This document shows, piece after piece, positions 36,104 through 45,944 of a stretch of 64,000 bases of DNA. Both the position numbers and the translations under genes were made by a program. The notes beneath the pieces are model-generated. The model worked only from the letters and a program-made list of their open reading frames with translations, made no database searches and was not told the origin of the DNA. Source of the stretch: Acidobacteriaceae bacterium (GTDB lineage: Bacteria; Acidobacteriota; Terriglobia; Bryobacterales; Bryobacteraceae); NCBI GenBank assembly GCA_903970405.1, contig CAJCIT010000152.1, forward strand, positions 1 to 64,000. The letters run 5' to 3'. The stretch's first letter is position 1, and every line of letters starts with the position of its first letter.

Positions 36104-36236
36104 CGCATCAGCGACGCCTCCGCCCGCGCCATCCTCCCGCGATTCCGGCCCTTCGTCCGATGGTTCGGACGCTTCGTCCGCAAACCGCATCCCACCACCC
36201 AATTTGGCCGTAACCTCGAACTCAGGAGAGACGCCC

Positions 36237-36944
36237 ATGAGTTCCCAACAAAGACGGCTTCTGATTTTCGCCGCCGTACTGTCGTTCGCAGGGGGAGTGC
36301 TGACCGCGCTGAAAGGCCAGGAGGCGCCCGTTCGCTTCGACGTTCAGGTGCGGGACAAGTTCTTCAGCGGTTATGCCGGTAACCGCGAAGCCCTGGACCG
36401 CGGCATGAAGATCTGTGAGGAGGCGCTGGCCAAAGACCCAAAGCATCCAGAGGCGCTGGTGTGGCATGGCAGCGGCCTGCTCTACTTGAGCGGGGAAGCG
36501 TTCCGCGGCGGCGACGGACAACGTGGCATGGAGCTCTACACCCGCGCAATCGACGAGATGGACCGGGCGGTGGAGCTGGCGCCCGATCGTATTGGGGTAC
36601 GAGTCCCGCGCGGCGCCACGCTGATGGTTTCCACCCTCTACATGCACGACAATCCCCAAGTGCATGATCTGCTTGAAAAGGCCATCGCCGATTATGAGTA
36701 TGTCTACAACCTTCAGAAAGACCATTGGGCGGAAGTCGGATCGCACTCCAAGGGTCAGCTATTGTTGGGATTGGGAAGCGGCTACAGCCGGTTGGGACAG
36801 GAGGAGAAAGCGAAGGCGGCATTTGAGCGCCTAGCCGTCGATTTGAAGGGCACTGAATTTGAATCCGTGGCGCAGACCTGGCTGCAGACAAAGACATTGA
36901 CGCCCCAACAGCAAACTTGTTATGGCTGTCATGTCAGCAAGTAG
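36237..36944 (+). CDS. Exported TPR protein with a C-terminal CXXCH motif
   Basis: The ATG at 36237 gives a signal peptide (RRLLIFAAVLSFAGGVLTAL), with an AGGAGA ribosome binding site upstream. The body contains two to three TPR-like helical pairs (ALDRGMKICEEALAKDPKHP, AIDEMDRAVELAPDRIGVR, YSRLGQEEKAKAAFERL). The last ten residues are TCYGCHVSK-like and include CYGCH, a heme c attachment motif, but with no room for a cytochrome fold and no evident distal ligand. Heme attachment is possible but uncertain. It lies about 46 bases before the LytS-like kinase. Confidence 0.7.
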   Translation: MSSQQRRLLIFAAVLSFAGGVLTALKGQEAPVRFDVQVRDKFFSGYAGNREALDRGMKICEEALAKDPKHPEALVWHGSGLLYLSGEAFRGGDGQRGMELYTRAIDEMDRAVELAPDRIGVRVPRGATLMVSTLYMHDNPQVHDLLEKAIADYEYVYNLQKDHWAEVGSHSKGQLLLGLGSGYSRLGQEEKAKAAFERLAVDLKGTEFESVAQTWLQTKTLTPQQQTCYGCHVSK

Positions 36945-36990: not shown

Positions 36991-38130
36991 ATGATACGCG
37001 CATCTAAGTCTAAGCTGCGGTGTTTCGTCGACTGGACGCTGAGAGTCATATTGGGCGGCATGTTGGCTGCCCTCGCTGTCCCGCTGCTGAACTGGGTGTT
37101 CAACTCCGCCATTCCCTTCAATCGTCTCTGGACGCAGTATCTGTATTCGCTGGTATATTCCGTGTCAATCGGAGGAATCTTCTCCGTTTTTATGGAGTTC
37201 CTGTGGGTCCGCACGCTGAAGTTCCCCGCCTTTTCGAGATGGGGCAGCCGCGTGGCGGGTACGATTATGGGCACCCTTCTCGGCTGCCTGCTGGCTGGAC
37301 TTGTTCTCCTGTTCCTCGCACGCGATTACCATTTCTGGCCTGAGCTGGTTGTGTCGTTTCGCATCGCACTGATTCTTTCCTTCGCGTCCGTATCGTTCAT
37401 CGCACTGTGGGAAACTCACAAAGCTCAAATGCAGGCATCGGCGATAGAGCTGAAGAAGAGAGAATTGGAACGGGAGCGGGCCGTGAACCTGGCTACGGAA
37501 GCGCGTCTGGCGTCGCTTGAGTCGCGCATTCATCCGCACTTCCTATTTAATGCCATCAACACCGTTGGCTCGCTGATTCCCGATGATCCGGTTCGCGCCG
37601 AAAGACTGTTGAACCAGATGGCCGCGCTTCTCCGCTTCTCGCTCGATTCAACACGCCGCGGCTTGGTGGAGTTGCGCCAGGAGTTGAAGGTAGTCCGGGA
37701 TTACCTGGATATCGAGCAAGCTCGCTTCGCGGGCCGGCTCCGCTATTCCGTTTCGATTCCCGATGAACTGCTTTCCGCCCTGGTTCCCCCGCTTTCGGTT
37801 CAGACGCTGGTCGAAAACAGCATTAAATTTGCCGTCGCGCCCAGCCGGCGGGGCGCTTCGCTCGAAATTTCGGCCATGACCTTGGGATCGGAGGTGACGG
37901 TCTCAGTCAGCGACGATGGGCCGGGCTTCACGGCCTCCTCATTGATAGCGGGACACGGCCTGGACAACCTGAGTGAGCGTCTGGCGATGCTCTTCAGAGA
38001 CGATGCGCGGCTCGATATCGATTCCGCGGAAGGGCGAACGGTGGTGTCTTTTAGTGTGCCCATGAATTTCACCGCCACTCCGCGGCCAGCGCCCGAACCT
38101 TCATCGTTCCTGGGCCGGAAGGCAGGATGA
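36991..38130 (+). CDS. LytS-type sensor histidine kinase
   Basis: A 379-residue membrane kinase. Four membrane segments span residues about 13-145 (for example WTLRVILGGMLAALAVPLLN), then a coiled-coil linker (ELKKRELERERAVNLATEAR). The HisKA_7TM/His_kinase domain has the phospho-His in RIHPHFLFNAINTVGSL, the N-box in VQTLVENSIKFAV and the ATP lid in SDDGPGF. No separate sensor domain is seen, so the membrane part must sense. It overlaps the LytTR regulator gene by four bases (ATGA), making a cognate pair. Confidence 0.92.
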   Translation: MIRASKSKLRCFVDWTLRVILGGMLAALAVPLLNWVFNSAIPFNRLWTQYLYSLVYSVSIGGIFSVFMEFLWVRTLKFPAFSRWGSRVAGTIMGTLLGCLLAGLVLLFLARDYHFWPELVVSFRIALILSFASVSFIALWETHKAQMQASAIELKKRELERERAVNLATEARLASLESRIHPHFLFNAINTVGSLIPDDPVRAERLLNQMAALLRFSLDSTRRGLVELRQELKVVRDYLDIEQARFAGRLRYSVSIPDELLSALVPPLSVQTLVENSIKFAVAPSRRGASLEISAMTLGSEVTVSVSDDGPGFTASSLIAGHGLDNLSERLAMLFRDDARLDIDSAEGRTVVSFSVPMNFTATPRPAPEPSSFLGRKAG

Positions 38131-38888
38131 TTCGCGCCTTCCTGGTTGACGATGAGCCGCTGGCGCTGAAGCGTCTGGACCGGCTGCTGGAACAAACCAA
38201 ACGGGTTCAAGTGGTGGGCCAAGCCACTGATCCGGGCGATGCGCTGGAGCAGATGCGATCGGCGCCGTTCGATGTTCTGTTCACGGATATCGAGATGCCC
38301 GGCTTTTCCGGCTTTGAGATGCTGAGCCGGATGGAAAGCCCGCCGCTGGTTATCTTCACGACCGCTTACTCCGAGCATGCGCTACGGGCCTTCGAGGTGA
38401 ACTCCATCGATTACCTGTTGAAGCCGGTGGATGAGAAGCACCTGGAACGGTCTCTCAACAAGCTTGACCGGATTCGTTCCGGCGCCGAGTCGCGGCCCTC
38501 GCTTGACAATATCCTGAACCAGTTGATGGCCACCTTGCCGGCGGCAAAGACTTATCCGGCTCGCCTGCCGTCGAAGCTCGGCGACAAGATCGAGTTCGTT
38601 GAAGTGGCGAAAGTGACCCACTTTTACGCCAACGAAAAATTGACGTACGCGGCGACGGCCAAGAAGCACTTCGTGGTCGACCGAACGATAACGGAGCTGG
38701 AAGAGATGCTCGATCCCGGGCGATTTGTTCGAATTCACCGCTCCACGCTGGTCAATCTGGAGTTCGTGCAGGAGTTGCACTCATGGTTTGCGGAACGCCT
38801 GATGATCAGGCTCAACGATGGGAGCAATACGGAATTGACCGTGGCCCGCGACCGCGCGAAATTGCTCAAGGAGAAATTGGGATTGTGA
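38127..38888 (+). CDS. LytTR-family response regulator
   Basis: A 253-residue regulator. The receiver domain (1-120) has DDEPLALKRLDRLLE, phospho-Asp in VLFTDIEMPGFSGFE, and YLLKPVDEKHLE. The C-terminal LytTR DNA-binding domain (about 150-250) has FVEVAKVTHFYANEKLTYA, FVVDRTITELEEML, FVRIHRSTLVNLEFVQEL. LytTR proteins bind direct repeats. TGTAAC repeats lie just downstream at 38959-38975, before the OmpL47 genes, making those genes candidate targets. It is coupled to the upstream kinase. Confidence 0.93.
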   Translation: MIRAFLVDDEPLALKRLDRLLEQTKRVQVVGQATDPGDALEQMRSAPFDVLFTDIEMPGFSGFEMLSRMESPPLVIFTTAYSEHALRAFEVNSIDYLLKPVDEKHLERSLNKLDRIRSGAESRPSLDNILNQLMATLPAAKTYPARLPSKLGDKIEFVEVAKVTHFYANEKLTYAATAKKHFVVDRTITELEEMLDPGRFVRIHRSTLVNLEFVQELHSWFAERLMIRLNDGSNTELTVARDRAKLLKEKLGL

Positions 38889-39365
38889 GTGCACGCGGCC
38901 GTCGCGGCCCTCACCACTATCGCCGCGTTTCTTAGCGGGATGTAAGTCGGCAATAATCTGTAACTAGTTTGTAACACTCGCATGCTCAGAACGCGCGAAA
39001 GTTGGAGCCAGACAGTTGCGGAGGGACAAGAAGCGACGGCGGGAGGGAGGCGCAGCAGTTACGCGTCCCCTTTTACATTGCGCGCACGCTCAGTAGGGGC
39101 ATGTGAACGTGTCGTCCAGACAACGATTACTCCCGCATCGAGACAGGCTGCGCTACAATCAAACGGAAAAAACGGGTCTTCCGTGGCTCGAGCAGAGCCG
39201 AGGCTTCGATCCGCGTCATCTATGCAAGCACCGCTAAGCCTGAAGACGCGAAAAAAATGGGAGGCAGACAAACGCGCCCGTTCGTAAGTCCTCTATTTTC
39301 AGTAGACCCTCGAAGGGCGCTTACGTCAGGCGCCAAGTTTTTCACGGCTTCCCATGGAGAGGTTA
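38889..39365. promoter_or_regulatory. Gene-free region with TGTAAC direct repeats
   Basis: About 477 bases without a convincing gene. TGTAAG (38941-38946), TGTAAC (38959-38964) and TGTAAC (38970-38975) are in direct orientation, the last two at an 11-base period. They lie between a LytTR regulator gene and the OmpL47-type genes and could be its binding sites. The 101-codon frame at 38982-39287 has no coding character and is not called. Nothing else is recognisable. Confidence 0.3.
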
Positions 39366-41129
39366 ATGCTCAAGTCGTTGTTGTTGGTTGTGTGCGCATT
39401 CATATTTTCCCCCTTCTGTATTGGCAATTTCGCTATGGCCGCGGATGGGCCACAGCCCCCTGCCGCCGGCGGTCCGCTGGTTGTCGCGCATCCGCACAAG
39501 GTTTTCATCGACACGGAACACAACAAACTGTTCTGGCCCATGGACAAGCCTTTCTGGGTTCGTCTGGCGGCCTCACCGGACGCCGATGCGCCGTCTTATC
39601 TGCTGCAGCGTGTAGCGCCTGAATCCGACATCACCACGGACAAGTACAACAAAGAGGGCATCGCTCTGGAGATCCAGGGCAAGCAGTTCATTCGCTGGTT
39701 CAACTACGTGACGAAGCAGACCGTAAATCTGCAGTTCTTCACCGATGGGGAGCCGCCTGTGACGAAAGCAGCCTGCACGGGAGCGCCTTCGGCCGTCGAT
39801 TCTCAGAAGACTTTCTATGGGAAAGGGCTGCATTGCGCTTTGGCTTCACAGGATGAGCTCTCGGGCGTCGAAACCACGTTTGTTTCAATCGACGACGAGC
39901 CTTACACGCCCTACAAAGCGGATCTCAGCCTGGATAAAGAAAAGGGCGTCGTGCTGCGGTACTATGCGGTGGATCGCGTCGGCTACGCGGAGACGCCGTC
40001 AACGCTTCGCTTCACGGTGGATCTCAGCGCTCCCACCACGACACACACCATCGCGGGCAACGCTCTTGGCGATGTGCTGTCAACGCAGGCTAAGTTTCAT
40101 ATTGCGAGCAGCGACGCGCTGTCGGGCGTGGCGAGCGTTCAGGCGCGGTTAGATAAAGAAGAGTTCAAGCCCGTCGCCAACGGTGAAGTAGCCGTGGAGA
40201 ATTTGCCCGATGGCGAACATACGCTCACCTACTACGCCGTGGACCGGGTTAGTAACCGCGAAACGGAGCACAACTTCCCGTTCTACCTCGACCGCCTGCC
40301 GCCCACCGCTGAAGCACAGGTGTCGGGAGATCTCTGGGTGGCGCCGAACGGAACTCGTTATGTTTCCAGCCGCAGCCGGATGCAATTGAGGGCACAGGAT
40401 AACAAGAGCGGCGTGGACAAGATTCTCTATTCGTTCGACGGAGCGAAATTCGAGACATATACTGGCCCACTGACTCCCGCCGCGCGAGCAGGAGGAGCCA
40501 AACTGTCTTACCGGGCGGCTGACAAGTTGGGCAACACCAGTACGGTGGCAACGCTTACGTATTCGATGGACATCGCCGCGCCGCAGAGCACGTTCCGCAT
40601 CACCGGGCCGTCATACCGGCTGCGTTCGGACGTGTATATTACACGCGACACGCGCATTGAGATGTCGGCGGCGGACGACGCGTCCGGTGTAAAACAGATT
40701 GAGTTCCAGGCGGAAGGCGCCCCTCACCCGCTGACGTACAGTGCGCCCCTCGCGTTCGCCGAGGAAGGCAGGCGGCTGGTTCGTTACTGGAGCACGGATC
40801 GGGTCAACAACCGTGAGTTGGACCGCGCGGTGGTAGTGATCACCGACAACACCCCGCCCGAGATTTTCGCCAACTTCAGTCTGCCCCCCGTCAACGCCGC
40901 CGGCCAGGCGGTTCCGGTATACCAGCCACAGACGAGTCTGTTTCTGGGCGCAACCGACAATGCCTCGGGCGTAAACAAGATTTACTACAGCTTCAACGGC
41001 GGCAAGGAAGCCGAGTATTCGACGCCGCTGGTGCTGGATCGCGAAGGCACGTTTGACTTGCTGATTCGAGCCGATGACAATCTTGGCAACCAAACCACTA
41101 AACACCTGCGATTCGCGATTCGGAGCTAG
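39366..41129 (+). CDS. Exported OmpL47-type repeat protein (1)
   Basis: A start at 39366 has GGAGAGG just upstream and yields a signal peptide ending MAA near residue 27; an ATG 12 bases earlier lacks a site. Residues about 45-130 form a head domain (HNKLFWPMDKPFWVRLAASP). From about 145 to 587 run about five repeats with the pattern S-G-V..I.Y.F.G..F..Y and L.YRA.D..GN, as in LTYYAVDRVSNRE and LSYRAADKLGNTS. This is the OmpL47/Ig-like repeat seen in surface proteins. It is the first of three consecutive exported genes. Binding function is unknown. Confidence 0.75.
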   Translation: MLKSLLLVVCAFIFSPFCIGNFAMAADGPQPPAAGGPLVVAHPHKVFIDTEHNKLFWPMDKPFWVRLAASPDADAPSYLLQRVAPESDITTDKYNKEGIALEIQGKQFIRWFNYVTKQTVNLQFFTDGEPPVTKAACTGAPSAVDSQKTFYGKGLHCALASQDELSGVETTFVSIDDEPYTPYKADLSLDKEKGVVLRYYAVDRVGYAETPSTLRFTVDLSAPTTTHTIAGNALGDVLSTQAKFHIASSDALSGVASVQARLDKEEFKPVANGEVAVENLPDGEHTLTYYAVDRVSNRETEHNFPFYLDRLPPTAEAQVSGDLWVAPNGTRYVSSRSRMQLRAQDNKSGVDKILYSFDGAKFETYTGPLTPAARAGGAKLSYRAADKLGNTSTVATLTYSMDIAAPQSTFRITGPSYRLRSDVYITRDTRIEMSAADDASGVKQIEFQAEGAPHPLTYSAPLAFAEEGRRLVRYWSTDRVNNRELDRAVVVITDNTPPEIFANFSLPPVNAAGQAVPVYQPQTSLFLGATDNASGVNKIYYSFNGGKEAEYSTPLVLDREGTFDLLIRADDNLGNQTTKHLRFAIRS

Positions 41130-41157
41130 CTTGCTCTTACTGCGCAGGGGACTTCGA

Positions 41158-44100
41158 ATGTCTGGGCTGGTTCAGTCCAGCACCGCCGCGGTGTTGGCGG
41201 CGGCGCTTGCGGCAGGGTGCGCATTCGCGCCGGCGAGTGCCGCCAGCGAAGCAGGGAAGCGCGACGCAGACCCGGCCACCTTTCCGAAGCGGTTCTACCG
41301 CGCGCCGGGCGGGCAGCTCTACGTTCCGGCTGGGACCCCGGTCCGGATGAGTATAGCGCTGAATGGCGCCGCGGAAGACTCGGACACGGCGTCGGTGATT
41401 CTGAAGGAAGGGCCGAACGCGCTGCAGTTGGGAGACGTGCGAGTGCCGGTGATTGCCGACGGGACCCCGCCGCAAACCGTGTTGGAGGTTGGGGATCCGA
41501 CCCATGTGGAAAACGGCGGACTCCGCATTCTGGGGCCGAATCCGAAGCTGCGGCTGAGCGCCGGCGATGCGCTGTCGGGCGTGGCCAGGATATTGATTTC
41601 GGCGGACGGCGCGGCGTTTGAGCCGCTACCCGCCGGCGGTGGCGGTCCCGTCTTCACTGTGGAGGGGGTCCACCGATTGCGCTACTACTCGGTGGATCAG
41701 GTCGGAAATGTTGAAAAGGTACAGGAATTCGCCTTCCGCCTGGATACCAGCCCGCCCCATACGCGGTTCGAACCTTCGGGCGCTTACGCCGATGGGGTAG
41801 CCGGCGTGGGAGCAACGCTTGCTCTTGCAGCTCAAGACCAGGATCCCGGCGCCGGCGTCCAGGCGATCCGTTATCGTCTCGACGACGCGGTGGAGCAGAC
41901 CTACGACAAACCGCTCCAGATGGATGCGCTGAGCGAAGGCACCCACACCCTCCAGTTCCATGCGGAGGATCGCGTCGGCAACGTGGAAACCGCTCAGAAA
42001 TTCACCTGGGTGGTGGATCGCACGCCGCCTGAAATGACCGCGAAAATCCGCGGTCCTCAGTATGTGGATAAGGGCGTGCGGTACATCTCGCCTCAATCGG
42101 AAGTTGAGCTTACCGGCCACGATGCCTTAGCCGGGGCGACAGCGGTGCGTTACCGGTTGGACGCCGCCACAGCGGACGTGGCCTATCGTGAGCCGTTTCG
42201 GCTGCCTGAGCGAGCGGGAATCCATCCTCTGCGGATCGAATCCGAGGATCCGGTGAAGAACAGTGCGAGAAAAACAGTGAATGACCTTTACGTGGATCTC
42301 ACACCACCCGAAACGGAAGTGGAATTCTCGCGTCCGTTCTTCGTTCGCGACGGTGAAGTTGTTCTGAACCCGGGGAGCCGGATTGCTCTAAACTCCAGCG
42401 ATTTTGAGTCCGGCGTGGAATCGGTGACGTACTCTCTGGATGGCGGACCGGAGCAGAGGTACGGCGAGCCGTTCTCGGTGACGGCCGAGGGCGAGCATCG
42501 CTTGACGGTGACGGCCACCGACCGCGTCGGCAATCGGGCGCCGGGACAGGAACTGCGCCTGCGCGTTCAGAGACCGGCGAATGGCCAGACCCCTCCGCCC
42601 GCAATGGACGCGAAGCGCTGGTACCAACACCCGAAGCTTGGATTGATGGGACCGCCAGGCCTGCCCTTTGAGCTGCGGATTGCGGCCTCCCCGGACGAGG
42701 GCGCGGAGAGCTTCTTGGTAAGCGCCGGCCCGGCAGCGCAGTCGACGCAAGAGCCGCTGGCGTTCACGGTTCCAGGCCTGAACACGCTGAAGGTGGCGAT
42801 TTCTCCGAAGGCGGCCGGTTTCGCGGTCCAGATCGATGGCGCGCCGCCAAAGACCGAAGTCACTGCCAGCGGTGCACGGCGGGCGGAGGCGGGTGGAGTC
42901 ACCTACTTCGGCCCGGCATTGAAGCTTTCGCTCGCCTCGGAAGACGATCCGGCTGGGGTTTCGTCGGGTCTGTGGAAGACGGTCTACTCGCTGGACGGCT
43001 CGGCGTACGCCACCTACACGGCGCCGCTCGACGTGTTCTCGCGTGAAGGCGCTTATACGTTTCGCTATTACGCGTTCGACAATGTGGGTAATGCGGAAAG
43101 CCCGCACGCCTTCGACTTCACGACTGACACCAGCCCGCCGAAGACCCGCCTGGAACTGCGTGGACCGCATCGCGCCAATACGGTAGCGCCTGCTACGCAC
43201 GTGGTACTGACCGCATCAGACAATCTTTCGGGTGTGGCGCAAGTCTTATACCGGATCGACGATGGCAACCCTCGCCCATACAGCGACCCGTTCGCGATCG
43301 GTTCACTGAGCGAGGGTCCGCACTCGCTGCATTACCTGGCGGTGGACGCGGTGGGTAACCGCGAGGAGGAGCACCACTGGTCATTCACACTTCAGAGCGC
43401 AGTGAGCCCGGCTTCGATCGAGGTGAAGGGCAACTCGGTGGAACGCGGCGGAACAATATTCGTCTCCGCGGGAAGCCTGATCCGGCTGAAGGCCGTTGAG
43501 GGAGATAGCGTAGTCTACACGATGGACGGCGCGGCGGGGAAGGTGTATACCGCGCCGATCCCGGCGCCGGAAACCGGTAGCCATCGGCTGAGCTTCCACG
43601 CCGTGGATGACCTGGGGAATGTGAGCGAGAGCCGCACTTTGAACGTGGTGGCGGATCGTACCGCTCCCAACAGCCATCTGCACTTCGAGGGCGCGCAAAT
43701 CACCAGGGAGTCGTCCACCATCATCAGCAGTGAAACGCGGATTGTCCTCGAAGCCGAGGCCGGGGCGGTAGGTGCTGCGACACTCGAGTACAGCTTGAAT
43801 GGAGGCCGTTGGCAGACCTACACCAGCCCGTTCACGATCAAGATCAATGGAACGATCGATTTTGCTTATCGCGCCCGGAACGCTTTGCAGACCGTGGAAG
43901 CGGCACAGAAGCAGCGGCTGACGATCGATTCCCTGGGTCCGGCGATCGGCGTCAGCTACAGCGCATCTGTTACTACCGAAGCCAGCACAGTTCAGGCGGC
44001 GCCGGGGACTCTGCTGTTCATTTCGGCGGAAGACGCGCCGGCCGGTCTGCGGAAGGTGACTTATAGGATCGACGATCAACCGGAGCTGATTTACCGCACT

Positions 44101-44217
44101 CCCTTGTCCGGTTTCGCTCCGGGCAAGACGTACACGATTGCGATCATGGCGGAGGATCTACTCGGCAACCGATCGCAGAAAACGGTGCGCGTGCGGATCC
44201 AGGAGCGAGCTCGATGA
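41158..44217 (+). CDS. Exported OmpL47-type repeat protein (2), internally duplicated
   Basis: A start at 41158 gives a signal (VLAAALAAGCAFAPASAASE); an upstream ATG at 41074 overlaps the previous gene. The 1019-residue protein reads as two tandem copies of one layout: head (about 40-100, FYRAPGGQLYVPAGTPVRMS), four to five OmpL47 repeats, a second head (about 482-560, KRWYQHPKLGLMGPPGLPFE), then five more repeats. Repeats carry YSLDGG..Y..P and L.F.A.D.VGN motifs (LRYYSVDQVGNVEK, LHYLAVDAVGNREE). The head matches that of the preceding gene. Stop and next start overlap (ATGA). Location is likely periplasm or surface. Confidence 0.75.
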   Translation: MSGLVQSSTAAVLAAALAAGCAFAPASAASEAGKRDADPATFPKRFYRAPGGQLYVPAGTPVRMSIALNGAAEDSDTASVILKEGPNALQLGDVRVPVIADGTPPQTVLEVGDPTHVENGGLRILGPNPKLRLSAGDALSGVARILISADGAAFEPLPAGGGGPVFTVEGVHRLRYYSVDQVGNVEKVQEFAFRLDTSPPHTRFEPSGAYADGVAGVGATLALAAQDQDPGAGVQAIRYRLDDAVEQTYDKPLQMDALSEGTHTLQFHAEDRVGNVETAQKFTWVVDRTPPEMTAKIRGPQYVDKGVRYISPQSEVELTGHDALAGATAVRYRLDAATADVAYREPFRLPERAGIHPLRIESEDPVKNSARKTVNDLYVDLTPPETEVEFSRPFFVRDGEVVLNPGSRIALNSSDFESGVESVTYSLDGGPEQRYGEPFSVTAEGEHRLTVTATDRVGNRAPGQELRLRVQRPANGQTPPPAMDAKRWYQHPKLGLMGPPGLPFELRIAASPDEGAESFLVSAGPAAQSTQEPLAFTVPGLNTLKVAISPKAAGFAVQIDGAPPKTEVTASGARRAEAGGVTYFGPALKLSLASEDDPAGVSSGLWKTVYSLDGSAYATYTAPLDVFSREGAYTFRYYAFDNVGNAESPHAFDFTTDTSPPKTRLELRGPHRANTVAPATHVVLTASDNLSGVAQVLYRIDDGNPRPYSDPFAIGSLSEGPHSLHYLAVDAVGNREEEHHWSFTLQSAVSPASIEVKGNSVERGGTIFVSAGSLIRLKAVEGDSVVYTMDGAAGKVYTAPIPAPETGSHRLSFHAVDDLGNVSESRTLNVVADRTAPNSHLHFEGAQITRESSTIISSETRIVLEAEAGAVGAATLEYSLNGGRWQTYTSPFTIKINGTIDFAYRARNALQTVEAAQKQRLTIDSLGPAIGVSYSASVTTEASTVQAAPGTLLFISAEDAPAGLRKVTYRIDDQPELIYRTPLSGFAPGKTYTIAIMAEDLLGNRSQKTVRVRIQERAR

Positions 44218-45944
44218 TCGGTCTGACGCGAAGGCTGGCCTCAGTGGCGGCGATGTTTTTGGCAGGCATCGTGCCTGCCGGGTGGGCTGAACCGCAGGCC
44301 GAACCGACGCCCACGGCATCGTCTATCGCCGTCACGGGGGTTCGCAGCTTCCTGCCGGTGACGTACCAGGCGGACCGGCAGAACTGGGCGATCGCCGAAG
44401 ACAATCGCGGCATTCTTTACCTTGGGAACAGTTCCGGGGTGCTGGAATTCGACGGCACTCGATGGCGTCACATCGAACTGCCCGGCAAGAGCGGTGCGTA
44501 CGCTTTGGGGAAGACCTCGGACGGACGCATCCTGGTGGGCGGGGAAGGCTGGGTGGGATGGCTTGCACCTGACCAAAACGGCTCGATGGTCTACGTCTCG
44601 AAGGTGGCCGACCTGCCCGAGGCTTTTCGCTCCACTAGCGACCGCGTGTTCCAGATCCTCAATACGCCGCAGGGTCCGGTGTTTCTCTCCGATCACTGGC
44701 TGTTTGTCAGAACCGCGAACGGCGCACTGACGGCGGTCCGCTCCGACGACCACTTCATGCAGGCGGCTTGGTTCCAGGGCGCGCTGTATGTGCTTGACAC
44801 CGGGCGCGGCCTGACCCGCTTCGATGGCGGGGCGCTACGAAGCATCGCGGGGGGCGCGAACATGCGGGGACTGACCATGCTTGCTGCGGAGGCCGGCCTG
44901 CTGATTCCGAGCTACAACGACGGGCTGGTGCGCTACGCGCCGGGTTCGGCGAAGCCCTGGCAGGTGTTGAACCCAACAGGCTGGAGTCCCACTGACGGCG
45001 CGGATGTGACGTCGTCGGCAGTCATGAACCGGAACCTGCTGGCGCTTGGCACGGCGAAACACGGCGTAACGCTAATCGACGCCGGGGGCGAAGTGCTGCG
45101 GCACATCGATGCCGCGGAGGGGTTGGCCGATGGGCACATTTACGGCCTCCATTACGATGGGCACGGCGGGCTGTGGCTAGCTGTGGACAACGGCGTGTCG
45201 CTGGTCAGCCTGAATCTTCCGCGCGATCCCGCCGCCGCGCCGTTCCGCGCGTGGGTGCGAAGCGTGGTGGGAACGCGAGACGACCGTCTGCTGTATGGGG
45301 GCGCGTATTTCGAAACGGTGGGCGGCGTTCAGCAACTGCTCCAGAGCAAGCCGCAAAAACTCGAGTTCCCGAACCAGTACAATGCATTTCGTTTTGCCTA
45401 TTCCGCCAACGGGCTTGGGGCGTCCGGCGAAATGGAATTCCAGACATATATGAGAGGCGTCGATAAGGACTGGTCAAGCTGGTCCACCCGCACCGAACGT
45501 GAGTTCACCGAACTGCGCCGCGGCACGTGGGTTTTCAGAGTCCGCGCGCGCAACGCCAACGGCGAGGTTTCGAGCGAAGGAACGTACGAACTGGAGGTGC
45601 GGCCGGCTTGGCATGACACCTGGTGGTTTGCCGCCATTCAGTTGATCTTTGTGGCGACCCTGCTGATTCTGCCCGGCCAAGCCCGCCATAAGGGCCTGCA
45701 AGACGCTCTCACCACTTTTGCGGTGATCTTGCCGTTCAGCTACGTCAGCGCCGCGATGAGCGATTACATCAAGCATTACTCAGCGGGTGTCGGCGTCTTC
45801 AAGATTCTGCTGAGCAGCACACTGGCGTTCCTGCTGGATCCAATCAAGAAGCGGCTGAAGAAGAGCGTGGAGAAGCGAAACGCCAAGCGCGCCGCGCGGC
45901 GAGCCGCGCAAGGCGCCGATAAAGCAGCCGAGCTAAAAAACTGA
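44214..45944 (+). CDS. Membrane-anchored propeller protein with Y_Y_Y domain, no kinase
   Basis: A 576-residue protein with a signal peptide (residues about 8-25). Residues about 45-350 form a seven-bladed-like propeller of the two-component-regulator type (WAIAEDNRGILYLGNSSGVL, GHIYGLHYDGHGGLWLAVDN). A triple-tyrosine (Y_Y_Y) domain follows at about 370-460 (YNAFRFAYSANG, TYMRGVDKDWSSWSTR). Membrane segments then lie near 470-490 and 505-545, and the end is Lys/Arg-rich. In HTCS sensors this input module is fused to a kinase; here no kinase follows. Its ATG overlaps the OmpL47 gene stop. It could feed the LytS-like kinase upstream. Confidence 0.77.
   Translation: MIGLTRRLASVAAMFLAGIVPAGWAEPQAEPTPTASSIAVTGVRSFLPVTYQADRQNWAIAEDNRGILYLGNSSGVLEFDGTRWRHIELPGKSGAYALGKTSDGRILVGGEGWVGWLAPDQNGSMVYVSKVADLPEAFRSTSDRVFQILNTPQGPVFLSDHWLFVRTANGALTAVRSDDHFMQAAWFQGALYVLDTGRGLTRFDGGALRSIAGGANMRGLTMLAAEAGLLIPSYNDGLVRYAPGSAKPWQVLNPTGWSPTDGADVTSSAVMNRNLLALGTAKHGVTLIDAGGEVLRHIDAAEGLADGHIYGLHYDGHGGLWLAVDNGVSLVSLNLPRDPAAAPFRAWVRSVVGTRDDRLLYGGAYFETVGGVQQLLQSKPQKLEFPNQYNAFRFAYSANGLGASGEMEFQTYMRGVDKDWSSWSTRTEREFTELRRGTWVFRVRARNANGEVSSEGTYELEVRPAWHDTWWFAAIQLIFVATLLILPGQARHKGLQDALTTFAVILPFSYVSAAMSDYIKHYSAGVGVFKILLSSTLAFLLDPIKKRLKKSVEKRNAKRAARRAAQGADKAAELKN

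Follow-up and report, generated by a model that had tools for sequence, protein, structure and literature searches.

Sequence comparison indicates that two gene modules with separate histories stand side by side on a 64 kb stretch of an Acidobacteriaceae genome (contig CAJCIT010000152.1; hereafter the window). One consists of two exported OmpL47-type repeat proteins and a propeller/Y_Y_Y membrane protein, here called O1, O2 and P. The other consists of an exported tetratricopeptide repeat (TPR) protein, a LytS-type membrane histidine kinase and a LytTR response regulator. We put the probability at roughly 0.6 that O1-O2-P is a horizontally spread, co-inherited envelope-sensing module, and that the LytS/LytTR pair with its TPR protein is a separate, probably autoregulated system. 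A first-pass annotation of positions 36991-45944 had considered the kinase, the regulator, O1, O2 and P as one possible sensing system. Domain matches bear out all five open reading frames (ORFs) as it described them, but its gene set starts one gene late, as the TPR gene is the conserved partner of the kinase.

Recurrence of O1-O2-P in distant genomes

That O1, O2 and P form a real, conserved set is borne out by their recurrence. The P family comprises nine genomes including the window's, and the trio or an O2-P pair was found in the eight others, which belong to KSB1, Caldithrix, relatives of Balneola and a 'Deltaproteobacteria'/Lambda group. An O2-like gene adjoins P in eight of the nine; in the remaining one (G517; G and L numbers are our handles for genomes and loci) P precedes O1-O2 and is no more than 7 kb away. 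The 4-nt overlap between O2 and P seen in the window recurs in L162, L172, L229 and L230, with a 1-nt gap in L225, and convergent arrangements exist of P with O2 in L161 and of P with O1 in L163. Three of the genomes, G513, G685 and G781, lay outside the training set of the P profile (A3), and all three carry O2 directly upstream of P; G685 and G781 had also been missed by the scan for O modules. Pairwise divergences agree between O2 and P over the nine genomes (Mantel r 0.77, p 0.0004) and between O1 and O2 over seven (Mantel r 0.93, p 0.0008). In Balneola sp. EhC07, two short genes that look EF-hand-like by eye lie between P and O1-O2 (L227:12053-13190).

The O-module scan of 84,980 species genomes yielded 21 loci. 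Relatives matching O1 over nearly its full length, at identities reaching 43%, come from KSB1, one 'Deltaproteobacteria' genome, relatives of Balneola and Bacteroidetes; other groups contributed shorter ones. Loci L160-L173 represent 14 genomes. A P-family protein scoring above 450 bits is encoded in six of these, and the other eight gave shorter propeller matches or none. Searches for P at an E-value of 1e-80 in phylum samples retrieved 2 of 148, 3 of 82 and 2 of 52 genomes, which brought in G685 and G781. Single O1-like genes were also observed in Bacteroidetes beside genes for TPR histidine kinases (L168:6160-9644, with a 4-nt overlap, and L173:356-5135).

Closer to home the module is hard to find. 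No relative of O1 was detected in the 119 other sampled genomes of the order (E 1e-10), and P gives partial matches only, in 20 of 120 genomes of the order and in 33 of 396 of the phylum sample, both counts including the window's genome and the latter with three candidates per genome scored, which leaves absence soft. Apart from the window's own, these partial matches are other receptors, mostly on much longer frames. The 15 nearest propeller/Y_Y_Y receptors examined in the order end in a nucleotide cyclase (eight) or a histidine kinase (six), and one runs off its contig. None of the 15 matches PF06580, and the idea that P supplies a half lacking in LytS-type propeller kinases was dropped. In phage records no P was found, the two propeller matches there being partial and about 25% identical.

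Architecture of P and its exchangeable outputs

P (44214-45944, forward strand, as are all genes described here) aligns with its orthologues along the whole length. It consists of a signal peptide, a seven-bladed propeller, a Y_Y_Y domain, a three-helix membrane region and a basic tail, with no output domain. Pfam recognizes Reg_prop at 22.5 bits (cut-off 20.4) and Y_Y_Y at 25.4 bits, just below the cut-off of 26.6. In the AlphaFold model (predicted local distance difference test, pLDDT, 79) the 28 strands of residues 40-333 form one propeller; the Y_Y_Y domain follows, and the model closes with three C-terminal helices, its final part predicted at low confidence. The annotation had called P membrane-anchored, which holds for the membrane; instead of a single anchor, however, three helices are predicted. 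This region can be aligned across the window, L161, L172, L162, L164 and L163 and is visible in L230 as well, that is, in seven of the nine P proteins.

The best sequence and fold matches of P among solved structures are the sensor domains of the Bacteroides hybrid two-component systems (HTCS) BT4663, BT4673 and BT3049 (fold match to 4a2m and others, E 1.9e-18), with which P shares the propeller and Y_Y_Y ectodomain ahead of a membrane helix. The earlier likening of P to the input half of an HTCS without its kinase is thus right about the propeller/Y_Y_Y plan and the absent kinase, but HTCS have two seven-bladed propellers where the model of P has one. P differs further in its three-helix membrane region, in its dedicated partners O1 and O2, and in the absence from its Pfam scan of the kinase and receiver domains that an HTCS unites in the same protein.

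The cytoplasmic ends of the nine P proteins vary: five have none, two a GGDEF domain with an altered motif and two a SpoIIE phosphatase. In L162 and L230, P runs on into the GGDEF domain, and in L225 and L229 it has one helix followed by SpoIIE. A gene for an extracytoplasmic function (ECF) sigma factor and a further short gene, a putative anti-sigma factor, lie downstream in L225, and in L231 there are also a STAS gene and an RsbW-like gene. Because relatives of P carry GGDEF or SpoIIE, with sigma, STAS or RsbW-like neighbours, we read P as a receptor with exchangeable outputs. These outputs make the sensing role suggested by the annotation likely for O1-O2-P. Propeller/Y_Y_Y receptors ending in GGDEF, SpoIIE, a cyclase or a kinase have the same ectodomain plan and likewise exchangeable outputs; the P family is set apart from them by having O2 linked to it and by a three-helix region common to seven of its nine members. 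Inspection of the ORF lists by eye also revealed response-regulator-like genes farther away in L162, L231 and L232.

The OmpL47-type repeat proteins O1 and O2

O1 (39354-41129, with a likely ATG start at 39366) combines an N-terminal domain with OmpL47-type repeats, and O2 (41158-44217, the likely ATG start of an ORF open from 41074) is built of two O1-like modules, as seen in the module alignment. Both are likely exported. They belong to the OmpL47 repeat family by a wide margin, scoring 256.9 bits (7.6e-78) and 374.4 bits (1.6e-114) against NCBIfam NF047446 (barrel_OmpL47), whose cut-off is 40 bits, and O2 also passes the cut-off of Lepto_OmpL47 (270.6 versus 250). Compared with Leptospira OmpL47, O1 and O2 are longer, have several modules and an N-terminal domain of their own, and lie near a P-type receptor in nine genomes. 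Experiments are reported to show OmpL47 of Leptospira exposed at the surface [PMC2698987].

The membrane-spanning β-barrel implied by the family name did not appear in the predicted structure of O1. Its AlphaFold model (pLDDT 83, predicted template modelling score 0.54) is a chain of immunoglobulin (Ig)-like domains behind a poorly predicted N-terminal part. Because O1 models as an Ig chain whose closest bacterial folds are fragments of the grappling-hook protein GhpA, the label 'beta-barrel' is doubtful for this protein. Another protein of the window's genome with an OmpL47-type repeat, peptidase-like by eye, is unlinked to P (G000:C164, L159:6435-10277).

A LytS/LytTR pair with a TPR partner and operator-like repeats

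The neighbouring module has a conserved composition of its own. The kinase (36991-38130) matches Pfam His_kinase PF06580 at 1.4e-21 and HATPase_c weakly, and has hydrophobic N-terminal clusters. It stands beside a regulator (38127-38888) with a receiver (Response_reg PF00072) and a LytTR domain (PF04397, 6.1e-22), the combination expected of a LytS/LytTR two-component system. The translational overlaps reported for kinase and regulator and for O2 and P are both present in the sequence, each of 4 nt. At E 1e-60 the regulator has matches in 34 other genomes of the 120-genome order sample (47-64% identity, one of them partial). A locus was fetched for 32 of these, all except G101 and G004, and the kinase adjoins the regulator in every one, as a partial gene at the contig end in G115.

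Of the 31 loci that allow the test, 27 have a TPR gene immediately ahead of the kinase, and G084, G014, G060 and G038 lack it; in G115 the contig end cuts the region. In the window this gene (36204-36944) stops 46 nt short of the kinase; its ORF starts with TTG at 36204, the likely start being near 36240. The product matches TPR families and ends in CYGCHVSK. A C-terminal CxGCH and H169 are invariant in 21 aligned TPR proteins including the window's, and all other matched loci with a readable C-terminus end in CxGCH as well (L135 and L151 are unreadable there). An exported protein with CxxCH is what is expected of a c-type cytochrome, and the 21 aligned TPR proteins combine this motif with hydrophobic N-termini, from which export was judged by eye. 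We consider the TPR protein probably a periplasmic mono-haem c protein; an exported operon partner with TPR and a C-terminal CxGCH distinguishes this set from LytS/LytTR systems with the same kinase and regulator types. Outside the order TPR relatives are few: at 1e-15 the phylum sample of 396 genomes contains 13 with a match, including the window's, and of 13 further loci examined two (L182 and L183, both outside the order) retain the C-terminal CxGCH. The window's genome holds a second LytS/LytTR pair (L149, G000:C199; 39% and 51% identical), which comes with neither a TPR gene nor the operator repeats described below.

Upstream of the TPR gene, the orthologues share CGGTTCGTCGG-form repeats at 21-bp spacing. 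Scanning with a fixed LytTR consensus was by itself uninformative, its one use being to expose these repeats; a matrix was then built from 35 sites of orthologue upstream regions only, the window being excluded. With this matrix the pair of direct repeats at 36146-36180 (forward strand, C-GGTTCGTCGG type, 21 bp apart) scores 22.1, the maximum of the whole window, and the best pairs in five shuffled windows score 7.9 to 14.0. Of the 20 training upstream regions 16 reach at least 20, and L132, L138, L154 and L150 score 10.6 to 19.0. The geometry of direct repeats at this spacing resembles that of LytTR sites. In 13 of 28 kinase/regulator regions from other genomes (e.g. L138:11241-13246), a gene for a major facilitator superfamily transporter diverges from the set's first gene, and the stretch common to both holds the operator-like repeats.

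Between the regulator and O1 lies a gap of 465 nt (38889-39353) without a paired operator site, the best pair scoring 3.5. It contains a lone half-site (39275, score 10.3) 79 nt ahead of the O1 ORF start; half-sites scoring at least this much number 19 in the window, this one counted. An operator shared by the TPR set and O1 was rejected on both grounds. Because paired repeats precede the TPR gene and none precede O1, the regulator probably controls its own TPR-kinase-regulator set from the putative operator, and there is no sign of its control over O1. The gap showed no riboswitch or other RNA family (Rfam, up to E 1), and its RNA folding is unremarkable (z -1.38). A terminator-like hairpin (39316-39334) stands 20 nt ahead of the O1 ORF start; as such sites are not enriched relative to shuffled sequence, it is a weak signal.

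Alternative readings

The genes of the two modules are adjacent and on the same strand, and the kinase, regulator, O1, O2 and P could constitute one split system, in which P signals through the LytS membrane domain to a LytTR regulator that controls O1-O2-P. A P without output, whose multi-helix membrane region could touch the helices of the kinase, would suit such an arrangement, as would the half-site ahead of O1. The genomic neighbourhoods, however, speak against it. None of 28 larger kinase/regulator regions fetched from other genomes contains O1, O2 or P, and tblastn found no relative of the kinase or regulator in five loci with O and P genes (E 1e-5) or in eight mapped P loci (E 1e-10). 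The 465-nt gap, the poor operator pair before O1 and the commonness of equally good half-sites point the same way. The first-pass annotation had named rare co-occurrence of the kinase and regulator with the exported genes in other genomes as what would refute its link. No co-occurrence was seen in the regions and loci examined and, with the candidate operator located before the TPR gene, we do not count the LytS/LytTR pair as part of the O1-O2-P system and regard the single split system as improbable. Decay is a still poorer explanation. P might be an HTCS that lost a propeller and its kinase and came to lie next to O1 and O2 by accident, and its nearest propeller matches in the order are indeed receptors of about 1000 residues with outputs. 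Full-length orthologues in other groups, with the same membrane region and O2 beside or near them, largely refute this, and we give it hardly any credence.

An unlikely but more serious competitor gives O1-O2-P a structural or secretory role in the envelope: P would serve as the scaffold for O1 and O2, and the fused GGDEF or SpoIIE domains would only tune production of the assembly. Its model is PorZ of the type IX secretion system, which has propellers and a Y_Y_Y-like end domain but lacks a kinase [PMC5121618]. O2 weakly matches the PorU model (5.1e-07, 27.7 bits versus a cut-off of 420), and the Ig-chain model of O1 resembles fragments of a surface grappling hook. Yet the membrane region of P is conserved and its relatives are fused to cytoplasmic signalling domains, whereas PorZ has two propellers, a secretion-signal end domain and, as far as that source goes, no such membrane region.

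We prefer the envelope-sensing module, against which several points nevertheless weigh. PorZ illustrates that propeller/Y_Y_Y-like proteins can be non-sensory [PMC5121618]. Sensing by the window's form of P is extrapolated from fused relatives, and in both GGDEF fusions the motif is degenerate (MGEKF and WGEKF). Five of the nine P proteins, the window's among them, have no output domain, and next to the other four the ORF lists, with part of the neighbours scanned, show no evident signalling gene. P is absent from eight of the 14 genomes with O1 relatives, so O proteins can occur alone. The P profile was built from six of the nine P proteins, the negative counts are soft since the P scans were capped at between 3 and 25 candidates per genome, and the Mantel agreement may be due in part to shared species history. 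The gene sets, their co-occurrence, the domain swaps and the operator-like repeats are computed results; a sensing role and its signal direction, the haem, autoregulation, horizontal spread and any physical contact of P with O1 and O2 are inferred, and a ligand of P is hypothetical.

A possible trans-envelope receptor

In the envelope-sensing module as we envisage it, P would be an inner-membrane receptor with its exported propeller and Y_Y_Y domain on the periplasmic side and a membrane region that relays a signal to the cytoplasm. O1 and O2 would be dedicated, exported Ig-like chains that capture, present or report a ligand or the state of the envelope to P. The output would be swapped between lineages, from SpoIIE near an ECF sigma and putative anti-sigma gene to a degenerate GGDEF domain or none; for the window's P a separate protein would have to take the signal. 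LytS/LytTR and the upstream TPR/CxGCH protein would work as their own, probably autoregulated system. A bolder proposal, which we make tentatively and hold to be somewhat less likely than its opposite, is that O1-O2-P represents an undescribed class of tripartite trans-envelope receptor that moves between phyla as a unit, with two surface or periplasmic Ig-chain proteins bridging the outer envelope to a single-propeller receptor of the inner membrane with exchangeable cytoplasmic output (SpoIIE with ECF sigma, GGDEF or a separate partner).

Neither the trio nor the TPR-kinase-regulator set was found described in the open-access literature, where searches on OmpL47-type or -like wording, on regulator propellers with SpoIIE and on Y_Y_Y with GGDEF and propeller returned nothing; for LytTR in Acidobacteria, titles and the beginnings of abstracts contained nothing on the TPR-kinase-regulator set. 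In the open-access accounts found, OmpL47-type repeat proteins are known only as surface proteins of Leptospira without a mechanism. The linkage described here ties them to a receptor family with readable outputs, so that their role becomes testable in genomes with P-SpoIIE or P-GGDEF fusions. For the kinase set, the likely operator of the LytTR system and its partner, which likely carries haem, can also be tested.

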